From Thermococcus sp. 18S1 (GTDB lineage: Archaea; Methanobacteriota_B; Thermococci; Thermococcales; Thermococcaceae): DNA of 64,000 nucleotides. The stretch lies in contig NZ_SNUU01000001.1 of the NCBI RefSeq assembly GCF_012027645.1, forward strand, positions 682,001-746,000, in the 5' to 3' direction. The position numbers and the translations under genes were made by a program. Under the pieces are notes generated by a model. That model was not told the DNA's origin. It ran no database searches and saw only the letters and a list, made by a program, of their open reading frames with translations. Below, one piece after another: positions 19,302 to 41,964 of this stretch (positions within the stretch are counted from its first letter, which is position 1; each line of letters starts with the position of its first letter).

Positions 19302-19358
19302 CGCGATGATGAGTGATGGGCGAACCGATTGATGAGGATGGAAAGGTGATCTCTGAGC
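19302..19358 (+). ncRNA. C/D box sRNA candidate (first of tandem pair)
   Basis: C box ATGATGA (19306-19312), a 12-base spacer (19313-19324), a D'-like CCGA (19325-19328), C' box TGATGA (19330-19335), and D box CTGA (19353-19356) preceded by 17 bases. The C to D' spacing is exactly the archaeal norm, but D' is a variant, the D'-C' gap is short and the C'-D spacing is long. A TTTTAA promoter element (19275-19280) lies 26 bases before the C box, followed by the same GG...TTCAAC context as the next sRNA. I recognise no rRNA target for either guide. Confidence 0.5.
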
Positions 19359-19389
19359 AACCCTTTTAAGGCCCATCTTCAACCTTTTC

Positions 19390-19447
19390 TGGGATGATGA
19401 TTTCAGCCTTGTCTGAGGCTCGTGATGAGGGAGTGACGGACTGACCG
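19390..19447 (+). ncRNA. C/D box sRNA guiding 2'-O-methylation, probable 16S rRNA targets
   Basis: Textbook archaeal geometry: C box ATGATGA (19394-19400), 12-base guide (19401-19412), D' CTGA (19413-19416), six-base loop, C' TGATGA (19423-19428), 12-base guide (19429-19440), D box CTGA (19441-19444). Promoter-like CTTTTAA ends 25 bases upstream, and T-rich sequence follows. From memory of Thermococcus 16S rRNA, the D' guide TTTCAGCCTTGT complements the conserved GCAAGGCTGAAA (near E. coli 898-909) and the D guide GGAGTGACGG complements CCGTCACTCC (near 1403-1412, decoding region). By the D+5 rule the targets would be G902 and U1406 (E. coli numbering). Confidence 0.85.
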
Positions 19448-37948: not shown

Positions 37949-38734
37949 TCACCCGATGCTCTTTTTGATCTCCTTAAAGTACTCCAAGAGTGCCTCCGCA
38001 ATCTCCTGGGACTCGATTCTAACGCTCACCTCGTGATTCCAGTCCAGCGCGGCCTCGCTCCAGTTGTGACTTCCGAGGTAAACCACCCTGCCGTCTATCA
38101 CCACCATCTTTGTGTGGAGGGTTACCGAGGGGGAATCAAAGACCACATCGACCCCGTTGGAGCGGAGGTAGTCGTAGGTGGCCCTGTTGTCCTCGATGCC
38201 GTTTTCGAGTATCACGTGGACGCTCACGCCCCTCTTCTTGGCCTCCACCAGCGCCCTTATCAGGTCGTTGGCATGGTCGTAGCTGTCGGTGGGGTCGTAC
38301 TTCATGAGAAACATGGTGACGTAAACGCTCTCCCGCGCACCGCGTATGTCCTCGATGAGGCTCCAGTAATACGCGTCATCCACCAGCAGTTTCGCAGGGG
38401 GAACGTTCTCCCCCTTTTTTGACCCCTCCAGCAGGCAGTCGCGGTACTTCGCGCTGAGCTCCTCAAGGCTCTCACTCGTCCTGGTTAATGTCGAGTTCAG
38501 GAGCCGGAGGTTCTCGATGCAGGCAGTGAGGTTCTTTCTGAGCTCCGTTTCAACGCTGCGGTTCTCGATGTACCTGGTTTCTGTCACGGTGAGGGTTTCG
38601 GTGACCGTTCTGGTTTTTTCCAGGGTGGCGGTTTTCTCCGCGGTGGCTTCCAGGGTTGACGTGCTTCCGAGGCAGCCAGAAGTTACGAGCATCGCTGCCA
38701 CCAGTATTGCCATGAGGTACACTTTTGACCGCAT
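37949..38734 (-). CDS. Phospholipase D-like lipoprotein
   Basis: 261 residues. Signal peptide with lipobox VTSGCLGS (Cys near residue 22), a Thr/Ser-rich and coiled-coil stalk (about 25-105), and a single PLD domain with the HKD motif HTKMVVIDGRVVYLGSHNWS in the C-terminal third. Single-HKD enzymes such as Nuc act as dimers and cleave phosphodiesters in DNA or lipids. The protein would sit on the outer face of the membrane. Its own stop overlaps the start of the 40-residue ORF. Confidence 0.88.
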   Translation of the reverse strand: MRSKVYLMAILVAAMLVTSGCLGSTSTLEATAEKTATLEKTRTVTETLTVTETRYIENRSVETELRKNLTACIENLRLLNSTLTRTSESLEELSAKYRDCLLEGSKKGENVPPAKLLVDDAYYWSLIEDIRGARESVYVTMFLMKYDPTDSYDHANDLIRALVEAKKRGVSVHVILENGIEDNRATYDYLRSNGVDVVFDSPSVTLHTKMVVIDGRVVYLGSHNWSEAALDWNHEVSVRIESQEIAEALLEYFKEIKKSIG

Positions 38735-38810
38735 GATGGTCGTAGGAGAATACGCCTTAAAGCTTTAGCGGGTGAAACCTTTTAACGTCCTCCGCCTACC
38801 CCGGGTGATT

Positions 38811-38866
38811 GGGATGATGAATCTGGAGCCCCCTGAGCGGTGAGGAGGTTTCGCGGGGCTGACCGA
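38811..38866 (+). ncRNA. C/D box sRNA, in the leader of the coiled-coil gene
   Basis: C box ATGATGA (38814-38820), 12-base guide (38821-38832), D' CTGA (38833-38836), four-base loop GCGG, C' TGAGGA (38841-38846, one mismatch), 12-base guide (38847-38858), D box CTGA (38859-38862). Both guide spacings are exactly 12. A TTTTAA element (38780-38785) ends 29 bases before the C box. The D guide GGTTTCGCGGGG shares nine bases of complementarity with CGCGAAACC of archaeal 16S rRNA (from memory), with mismatches next to the D box; the D' guide target is unknown. The next ORF starts six bases after the D box. Confidence 0.75.
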
Positions 38867-38867
38867 G

Positions 38868-39164
38868 ATGATAAGGGAACGCCTCTGTCGGGAGTACCTG
38901 GAGGAAATCGACCGGCTGGAGCGTTCGCTCCGGGAGCTGGAGGATGAGCTCGTAGAGCTGAGAATGCAGCTGAACCTCAAGGTGGATGAGGCCAACAGGC
39001 TCGCCATAGAGAACGCAAGCCTGAGGCACAGGATTGAGATGATGGAGCGGCGCGAGAAACGGCTGGTGGAGTTTCTCCGGAAGCTTAAGATTCCCATAAT
39101 ATACATCGACGAGGAGCAGTTCGAGGACGTGGATGTGGACATCGGGCCCGATTCGAAGGACTGA
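38868..39164 (+). CDS. Coiled-coil hypothetical protein, 98 aa
   Basis: Nearly the whole protein up to residue 75 is a heptad-rich coiled coil (EYLEEIDRLERSLRELEDELVEL...), followed by a short strand IPIIYIDEEQ and an acidic tail EDVDVDIGPDSKD. An in-frame TGA at 38841 limits the start to ATG 38868 or later; no good ribosome site precedes it, and the start lies directly behind a C/D box sRNA. The message may be processed from, or compete with, the sRNA. Family not recognised. Confidence 0.65.
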   Translation: MIRERLCREYLEEIDRLERSLRELEDELVELRMQLNLKVDEANRLAIENASLRHRIEMMERREKRLVEFLRKLKIPIIYIDEEQFEDVDVDIGPDSKD

Positions 39165-39219
39165 GGAAAACCTTAATAGCCCAACTTCCTTTTCTACTTC
39201 AGCTTAAGAGGTGAGGCTA

Positions 39220-41964
39220 ATGAGCATGGATATGACCACGAGGATGTTTAAGGAAGAGGGGTGGATGAGGAAGCAGTGCCCCAAGTGCGGTAAATTCTTC
39301 TGGACGCTCGACCCGGACAGGAAAACCTGCGGTGACCCGCCGTGTGACGAGTACTCGTTCATCGGAAAGCCGGGGATACCGAAGAAGTACACCCTCGAGG
39401 AGATGCGCGAGAAGTTCCTGAGCTTCTTCGAAAAGCACGGGCACGGGAGGGTGAAGCGCTTCCCGGTCCTTCCGCGCTGGAGAGACGACGTTCTCCTCGT
39501 CGGGGCTTCGATCATGGACTTCCAGCCGTGGGTCATAAGCGGCGAAGCCGACCCGCCGGCCAACCCGCTCACCATAAGCCAGCCCTCGATAAGGTTCACC
39601 GACATAGACAACGTTGGAATAACCGGCAGGCACTTCACGATCTTCGAGATGATGGCGCACCACGCCTTCAACTACCCCGACAAGCCGATTTACTGGATGG
39701 ACGAGACGGTTGAGCTGGCCTTCGAGTTCTTCACCAAGGAGCTCGGGATGAAGGGTGAGGACATCACCTTCAAGGAGAACCCGTGGGCCGGCGGTGGAAA
39801 CGCTGGTCCAGCATTCGAGGTTCTCTACCGCGGTCTTGAGGTGGCAACGCTGGTTTTCATGCAGTACAAGAAGGCGCCAAAGGACGCCGACCCGGCTCAG
39901 GTTGTGGAGATCAAGGGCGACTACTACGTCCCCATGGAGACCCGCGTTGTTGACACCGGATACGGCCTCGAGAGGCTCGTCTGGATGAGCCACGGGACGC
40001 CCACCGCCTACGACGCCGTCCTTGGCTACGTCGTCGAGCCGCTCAAGAGGATGGCGGGTGTGGAGAAGATAGATGAGCGCATCCTCATGGAGAACTCCCG
40101 CCTCGCTGGAATGTTTGACATCGAGGACATGGGCGACCTGAGGTACCTCCGCGAGCAAGTCGCTAAACGCGTCGGAATCAGCGTCGAGGAGCTTACAAAG
40201 GCTGTGAGGCCCTACGAGCTGATATATGCTGTAGCGGACCATACCAAGGCCCTAACCTTCATGCTGGCAGATGGCGTTATCCCGTCCAACGTCAAGGCCG
40301 GCTACCTCGCGAGGCTCCTGATAAGGAAGAGCATAAGGCACCTCCGCGAGCTCGGCCTCGAGGTCCCGCTGGCGGAGATAGTGGCCATGCACATAAAGGA
40401 GCTCTCCCCAACCTACCCCGAGTTCAAGGAGATGGAAGACGTTATCCTGGACATAATCAACGTCGAGGAGAGGCGCTACCAGGAGACCCTCAGGCGCGGA
40501 AGCGACCTCGTGAAGCGCGAGGTGGCCAAGCTCAAGAAGGCCGGCAAGGACGAGATTCCGCTCGAAAGGCTCCTCCTGTTCTACGAGAGCCACGGCTTAA
40601 CCCCCGAGATCGTCGCGGAGGTGGCGCAGAGGGAGGGCATAAAGGTCGAGATACCCGACAACTTCTACACGCTGGTCGCCAAGGAGGCGGAGAAGGCGGA
40701 GAAGAAGACCGCCGCTGAATACGCCGTTGACTTCGAGCTGGTCAAAGATTTGCCAGACACGAGGACGCTCTACTACGAGGATCCGTTCATGAAGGAGTTC
40801 GACGCCGAGGTTCTCAAGGTCATAGACGACTGGGTGGTTCTCAACCAGACCGCCTTCTATCCGGAGGGCGGCGGTCAGCCGTGCGACCTCGGTGAGCTCG
40901 AGGTTGAGGGGGAGAAGGTGGAGGTCAGGGACGTTCAGAAGATAGGTAAGGTCATCCTCCACAGGGTCGAGAGGTCCGAGCTATTCAAGCCCGGCGCGAA
41001 GGTTCACGGAAGGATCGACTGGGACAGGAGAATACAGCACATGCGCCACCACACCGGAACCCACGTCCTCATGGGTGCCCTCGTGAGGGTTCTCGGCAAG
41101 CACGTCTGGCAGGCCGGTTCACAGCTCCACACCGACTGGGCCAGGCTGGACATAAGCCACTACAAGCGCATAAGTGAGGATGAGCTCAGGGAGATAGAGC
41201 GCCTCGCCAACCGCGTTGTCATGGAGAACAGGAAGGTCACCTGGGAGTGGCTCCCGAGGACGGAGGCCGAGATGAAGTACGGCTTCAGGCTCTACCAGGG
41301 TGGAGTCGTCCCCGGAAGGGTCATCAGGGTGCTCAAGATCGAGGACTGGGACGTCCAGGCCTGCGGTGGAACGCACCTGCCCAACACTGGCCTTATAGGT
41401 CCGATCAAGATTCTGAGAACCGAGCGCATACAGGACGGCGTTGAGAGAATAATCTTCGCCGCCGGAGAGGCCGCTGTTGACTGGATGCAGGAGACCGAGA
41501 GGCTCCTCAAGAGAACCGCCGAGACCTTCCGCGTCCCGCCCGAGAAGGTGCCGGAGACTGCCGAGAGGTTCTTCAACGAGTGGAAGGAGGCGAGAAAGGA
41601 GGTCGAGAAGCTCAGGAAGGAGCTGGCCAAGCTCCTCGTCTACGAGCTCGAGGGGAAGGTCGAGAAGGTTGGGGAGGTTGAGTTCATCGGAGCCGTCGTT
41701 GAGGGCGCGATGGACGACCTCCGCGAGGCGGCAAACAAGCTCAGGAAGGAGAAGAGGGTTATAGTCCTCATCAGCAGGGAGGGCCACTTCGTTGTGGCGG
41801 TCGGTGATGGCCTCGAGCTCAAAGCTGGGGAGCTGGCGAAGATAATAACCTCCGTCGCCGGCGGCGGTGGCGGAAGGAAGGAGCTCGCCCAGGGCAGAAT
41901 CAAGAACCCGCTGAAGGCGGAGGAGGCTATAGCGCAGACAAAAGAGAAAATTAAAATGCATTAG
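39220..41964 (+). CDS. alaS: Alanyl-tRNA synthetase
   Basis: 914 residues from ATG 39220 (GAGGTGA upstream). The archaeal form: N-terminal zinc-ribbon extension (CPKCGKFF...CGDPPC), class II catalytic core with [15 protein letters not shown], the tRNA-recognition helices, the editing domain with HHTGTHVL and [10 protein letters not shown] zinc/catalytic motifs, and the C-Ala dimerisation domain ending [13 protein letters not shown]. It charges tRNA-Ala and clears mischarged Ser/Gly. A separate editing factor, AlaX, is encoded at 63236. Confidence 0.97.

Follow-up and report, generated by a model that had tools for sequence, protein, structure and literature searches.

The C/D box sRNA sR23 as a probable mRNA leader of a small coiled-coil protein gene in Thermococcales

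In Thermococcus sp. 18S1 the guide RNA sR23 ends directly before the gene of a 98-amino-acid coiled-coil protein, and we estimate a probability of about two in three that a single transcript yields two products in series, the sR23 guide and the mRNA of this protein. Both lie within the window, that is the whole stretch of 64,000 nucleotides analysed here. Their features and those of the neighbouring genes are as follows.

37949-38734, opposite direction to sR23 and the ORF: PLD-family gene (ORF list, profile match)
38774..38785, + strand: BRE/TATA-like GAAACC-TTTTAA, sole promoter-like element of both sRNA and ORF (A+T peaks, match score)
38807..38812, + strand: predicted TSS at the sRNA 5' end (TATA-TSS distance rule)
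38812..38864, + strand: sR23 (RF01138), putative leader of the ORF mRNA (cmscan; found in 90 of 94 Thermococcales genomes)
38814..38820, + strand: C box AUGAUGA (sequence)
38821..38832, + strand: D' guide AUCUGGAGCCCC, 12 nt (sequence)
38833..38836, + strand: D' box CUGA (sequence)
38840..38846, + strand: C' box GUGAGGA, containing the in-frame UGA 38841-38843 (sequence)
38847..38858, + strand: D guide GGUUUCGCGGGG, 12 nt, whose last GGGG is a weak SD-like tract (sequence, pairing energy)
38859..38862, + strand: D box CUGA (sequence)
38863..38864, + strand: 3' arm CC of the terminal stem, pairing with GG 38811-38812; base 38813 forms the k-turn bulge (covariation)
38868..39164, + strand: gene of the 98-aa coiled-coil protein, start codon 5 nt past the D box (orthologues, dN/dS, start spacing)
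39220..41964, + strand: alaS, the downstream neighbour (TIGR03683, 1348.7 bits)

A preliminary description of this DNA had recognised a two-guide C/D box sRNA with C, D', C' and D boxes ending at 38862. The positions agree with ours, and cmscan assigns 38812-38864 to sR23 (Rfam RF01138) with 75.1 bits and E=2.3e-16; the match spans model positions 1-54 of 54, and the curated cut-off is 45. At this score and E-value over the full length of the model chance is excluded. The four boxes follow each other in the order known for the C/D class, with guides of about 10-12 nt. The terminal stem was counted by the k-turn convention, in which the single base before the C box is bulged. Its two pairs form in 87 and 83 of the 88 sR23 loci that we read, five changes from G-C to A-U affect both sides, and any extension beyond the two pairs is weak. 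The stem bases after the D box, and mostly also the third base (G), are retained in loci without the ORF and are therefore part of the sRNA. Only about two free bases are left between the functional sRNA and the start codon. Within the D' guide the eleven 3' bases are identical in 85 of 88 genomes. Folding of the leader RNA was considered as further support and set aside, as the z value of 0.86 is not above that of shuffled sequences; k-turn RNAs are not expected to score in this comparison.

The targets of the two guides were searched for in the 16S and 23S rRNA and 44 tRNAs of the same genome and in the rRNAs of nine further genomes. No convincing target at N+5 was found in the 16S rRNA, the 23S rRNA or the 44 tRNAs of the own genome. 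The best joint site (16S 1418-1431, with N+5 at C1422 and G1426) was equalled by 21 of 60 shuffled guide pairs and is not claimed here, and tRNA-Trp as a target was dropped after a pattern test. Exact complements of the guides occur elsewhere in the genome in three regions in which no tRNA was detected.

Orthologues of the ORF downstream of sR23 are present in 85 of 94 Thermococcales genomes and are under purifying selection, with a median dN/dS of 0.23 over 244 pairs and values of 0.06-0.14 against the nearest relatives, which argues that the 98 codons represent a real gene. The reading frame is closed upstream by the UGA at 38841-38843 within the C' box and no other start precedes 38868, which therefore is the sole usable start near the sRNA, just as the preliminary description had it. 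The protein matches consist only of weak similarities to YabA-like coiled-coil proteins, and we attribute them to the shared coiled-coil.

Among the 88 sR23 loci the ORF follows directly in 76, and in 74 of these coupled loci its frame could be traced. An in-frame start codon lies 2-6 nt past the D box in 73 of the 74, in all six genera; as the coupled genomes share ancestry, these are not 73 independent observations. In total 56 genomes have an ATG and three a GTG at +5, four have an ATG at +4, and one start each is found at +6 and +2. The remaining eight genomes have a conserved ATG at +12, and all of them have an in-frame GTG at +3. The sole exception is G016 with a one-base frame change. 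By contrast, the gap between the ORF and alaS ranges from 33 to 378 nt. Judged by these comparisons, the layout of sR23 and ORF is ancient and conserved in Thermococcales. The preliminary description had proposed to look for conservation of the boxes and of the ORF start in relatives, and both are seen in six genera; the start has not moved to a later conserved Met, the case named there as speaking against the arrangement. The frame change of G016 (L038 / L191), a genome in which an island has also integrated at sR23 (see below), is a deletion of one base in codons 3-4, either a sequencing error or a recent gene loss.

A double peak of A+T content, located at -38..-35 and -31..-27 relative to the C box, is common to the 88 loci. 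When the distance of about 27 nt between TATA and TSS (PMC5316973) is applied to these peaks, they fall on the places of BRE and TATA for a TSS that coincides with the sRNA 5' end. In the window the best promoter match reaches a score of 10.0 at 38774-38785, compared with 4.0 within the sRNA, which agrees with the earlier assignment of a single TATA near 38780 to both sRNA and ORF. Over the 88 loci no promoter-like signal is seen inside sR23, and therefore the conserved sRNA offers no promoter for a separate leaderless mRNA, whose 5' end would have to lie at most 8 nt upstream of the start codon. Because the promoter-like signal is confined to the 5' end of the sRNA, sR23 is the putative leader of the mRNA. 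A terminator-like stretch between sR23 and ORF is absent in the coupled loci; T-rich stretches do follow sR60 in the window and the sR23 of four uncoupled genomes (see below), but not coupled sR23. With one promoter and no terminator-like stretch the whole guide RNA would be the leader of every sense transcript from that promoter, and from these two observations we infer that sR23 and the ORF are co-transcribed. The window contains a further pair of C/D sRNAs, sR1 (19302-19358) and sR60 (19390-19446), which lie in tandem in intergenic DNA (19302-19446) and have an ordinary stand-alone layout; the 3' end of sR60 is T-rich.

The one-transcript model can be put together as follows. RNA synthesis would start from the single promoter at the 5' end of sR23, and L7Ae, Nop5 and fibrillarin would assemble on the two k-turns of the sR23 leader. 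The RNA outside the k-turns would be cut or trimmed, leaving mature sR23, with an expected length of about 55 nt, as a trans-acting guide, and the remaining transcript would be translated from the start codon 2-6 nt past the D box. Initiation might use the weak GGGG/GGAG tract, or the transcript might be read as a nearly leaderless mRNA once sR23 is released. On a given molecule sRNP assembly and initiation would be mutually exclusive, which is expected because D box, D guide and start codon lie within about 20 nt, and the level of the protein would be low and tied to sR23 synthesis. The processing is postulated and the exclusion is derived from geometry; we do not claim the exclusion as a regulated switch, although a translational switch is possible. 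Against the one-transcript model it counts that the mRNA could start further upstream, that about 21% of random positions equal the weak SD-like tract, and that C/D sRNAs may mature by trimming of their ends, in which case the mRNA body would be lost and not set free.

The preliminary description stated that the ORF has no ribosome site of its own, and this stands insofar as the SD consensus GGDGRD, which is carried by about half of the T. kodakarensis mRNAs (PMC4247193), was found between -20 and -3 in none of the 74 coupled loci. It has to be amended with respect to a weak SD-like tract, the GGGG (GGAG in Pyrococcus-like genomes) ending the D guide 8-9 nt upstream of the start codon. The pairing of this tract with the 16S tail amounts to about -6.3 kcal/mol versus a median of -10.9 for alaS, and -6.3 is reached by about 21% of random positions, a slightly longer 16S tail being used in this last comparison. 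The downstream alaS has its own strong SD, GAGGTGAGG, at 39208-39216. A stretch in the C' box, GAGGAGGU, resembles a strong SD but was rejected as ribosome site of the ORF because of its distance of 18 nt from the ATG and its variation in relatives (GUGACGACG, GUGAUGAAG).

It is conceivable, if somewhat doubtful, that the transcript is cut just past the terminal stem, so that sR23 is set free and the ORF, with a remaining leader of 0-5 nt, is translated as a leaderless mRNA. The starts cluster 2-6 nt past the D box, though the sRNA constrains only D+1 to D+3, and about 14% of the T. kodakarensis mRNAs are leaderless (PMC4247193). The orthologues in G007 and G009, where ORF and sRNA are separated, lack an SD, and about 25-30 nt upstream of their ATG stands a TATA-like box, as in leaderless genes. 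However, the four other uncoupled genes carry leaders with purine-rich SD-like tracts, and the published maturation model that is favoured is trimming (PMC7994747). We rank this release slightly above a regulated switch, because the start tracks the end of the sRNA and not an SD, and because the two separated orthologues look leaderless.

In such a regulated switch L7Ae, Nop5 and fibrillarin on the leader would act as an off-switch, and the protein would be made only when the core sRNP proteins are scarce. There is precedent in the repression by L7Ae through a leader k-turn (PMC5539422; PMC6298567). The holding of the start codon 2-6 nt from the D box over six genera would suit this idea, as would the location of both the SD-like tract and the D box inside the expected sRNP footprint. 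We regard it as rather unlikely nonetheless. The protein matches gave no hint that the protein is connected with sRNP biology, and the remaining counter-evidence comes from species in which sR23 and the ORF have been naturally uncoupled.

In G030, G042, G067 and G069 an insertion splits sR23 from the ORF. There, sR23 is followed by a T-rich, terminator-like stretch, and the ORF is preceded by promoter-like sequence and a purine-rich tract, which is the consensus GGGGAG in two of them. In G007, G009 and G011 the ORF is located elsewhere than sR23, and a search of G010 did not find a full sR23. In G058, G063, G078 and G087 sR23 has been kept and the ORF at the locus is missing or decayed. Separation requires six changes on the ORF tree, at least three of which are forced by well-supported branches, the support being rough because the alignment has few columns. 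Thus at least three, and probably about six, lineages uncoupled sR23 and the ORF while retaining both. The AlaS tree was poorly resolved and alaS is missing near 20 loci; the ORF tree was used in its place. That uncoupled genes always gain an SD does not hold, since the consensus is present in two of four and two others look leaderless; we keep it as a tendency. Finally, G076 has a separated copy of the ORF (contig C5 116635, L116), preceded by the transposon-end-like sequence GCCTCGTCCCTTCAGGGCGGGGAGGAGG; its reading frame leaves that of the family past about 62 residues, and the copy looks rearranged.

The D' guide is identical in 12 of 12 separated loci as compared with 73 of 76 coupled ones. 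Therefore sR23 works in trans, and nothing about control in cis can be read from its conservation; the conservation of the boxes is fully explained by the function of the guide RNA itself. For the regulated switch this means that the equal conservation of boxes and guides without the ORF provides no evidence for cis control, and since uncoupling occurred repeatedly with both parts kept, the switch cannot be essential. The coupling, though ancient, is dispensable. The same loci speak against a still different reading, in which no guide RNA exists and the boxes serve the mRNA solely as a k-turn that regulates it in cis. This was raised for some snoRNAs in 5'-UTRs of T. kodakarensis (PMC4247193), but 12 loci have sR23 with an identical D' guide where the ORF is remote or missing, and the sR23 terminal stem covaries, so that we consider this reading extremely improbable here.

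Chance could also account for the arrangement, if the gene landed behind the sR23 promoter in an ancestor, insertions that separate the two are rare, and no functional coupling exists. The uncoupled lineages are viable, and the literature treats such arrangements as rare and notes a lowered downstream expression (PMC7994747). Against it stands that the start spacing is kept at 2-6 nt through changes of frame (GTG at +3, starts at +4, +5 and +6), whereas neighbouring spacings vary widely. We see such hitch-hiking as a plausible minority view. The regulated switch, the release of a leaderless mRNA and hitch-hiking are all compatible with the one-transcript model, and the confidences attached to them are not meant to sum to one.

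Leaders containing C/D box sRNAs are known, and published counts served as our base rate for them. In 5'-UTRs of T. kodakarensis 11 potential snoRNAs were reported, presumed to be released by processing or to have a possible role as cis-regulatory k-turns (PMC4247193). Box motifs suffice for the maturation of C/D sRNAs, and where such an sRNA overlaps its 5' end, the downstream gene is expressed less (Tripp 2017, cited from PMC7994747). L7Ae represses the translation of l7ae through a k-turn in the leader (Daume 2017, PMC5539422). As both 5'-UTR C/D sRNAs and leader control by L7Ae have been published, the novelty which the preliminary description attached to an sRNP acting as translational switch cannot be upheld.

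The sRNA itself does not differ from the sR23 family RF01138, having the same boxes and guides and a full-length match. Like the C/D sRNAs which overlap or abut ORFs (PMC4247193; PMC7994747), it lies before a co-oriented gene without a separate promoter. Compared with the overlapping sRNA genes, sR23 abuts its gene, and the layout is conserved in six genera with the start 2-6 nt past the D box. The l7ae leader (PMC5539422) likewise has a k-turn beside the start codon of the mRNA, but its k-turn is single and simple and an SD precedes the start by 7-10 nt, whereas the sR23 leader comprises a complete two-guide sRNA and no consensus SD. A k-turn that masks an SD, as in l7ae, is not seen in the sR23 leader, where GGDGRD is lacking in 74 of 74 loci and only the weak GGGG/GGAG occurs. 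Regulation through the leader is demonstrated for l7ae and hypothetical for sR23. With the leaderless mRNAs of Thermococcales the ORF shares the lack of an SD and a start near a possible RNA 5' end, but this end would result from processing and that of leaderless mRNAs results from a promoter.

Therefore the fusion of sR23 and ORF is a well-conserved case of an already known type. What is new is the order-wide map of the fusion of sR23 to the start of one gene, the clamp on the start position and the separated controls. They provide an order-wide comparative set for the question, left open in the archaeal literature, of what becomes of an mRNA that has a guide RNA as its leader. Since nature offers species with and without the coupling, some of them probably from genera open to genetics, the effect of sRNP assembly on translation is testable with evolutionary controls. 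One might speculate further that the two-guide C/D sRNP is a switch between alternative fates, guide RNA or protein template, decided by sRNP assembly at the D box and maintained in Thermococcales either for tying the level of the protein to the free pool of L7Ae, Nop5 and fibrillarin or because the release of sR23 makes a translatable leaderless mRNA; we think that this is improbable.

The comparison of the loci also showed that defence islands integrate at sR23. In G016 (L191, 3077-19973) and G001 (L192, 3059-19969) a 16.9-kb integrative element lies inside the sR23 gene, flanked by direct repeats of 14 nt, GGGATGATGAGTCT, which correspond to the C box and the start of the D' guide. The element is 99% identical between these genomes of different genera and was therefore recently transferred. 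The native sR23 promoter has stayed with the left repeat, and the right repeat belongs to a whole sR23; when the flanks in G016 are joined, 88 of 89 bases match the uninterrupted locus of G040. The first gene of the element encodes a tyrosine recombinase of 728 aa, its frame running through the left repeat, and the element also carries an MCM helicase, a type I restriction-modification system, GmrSD and a small ORF reading into sR23. At the same place of sR23, G070 (L188) has a different, unrelated island of 19.3 kb with a partial copy of 23 nt, a 333-aa integrase and the BREX genes BrxP, BrxC, PglZ and BrxL. Thus two different integrases have chosen the gene of a C/D box sRNA as attB. A word search of a review of archaeal tyrosine recombinases gave no mention of snoRNA or sRNA integration sites, and judged on that review alone the 5' end of sR23 is likely a novel integration site.

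In both islands the integrase reading frame contains, within its 5' end, a copy of the att site. After integration sR23 and the ORF are located behind the end of the element, and the promoter that once served sR23 is directed into the integrase gene. In G026 (L189), G073 (L190) and G076 (L193) remnants of the right end of the first element, 86-92% identical, are found just upstream of sR23, and the sR23 promoter of these three genomes is probably derived from the element.
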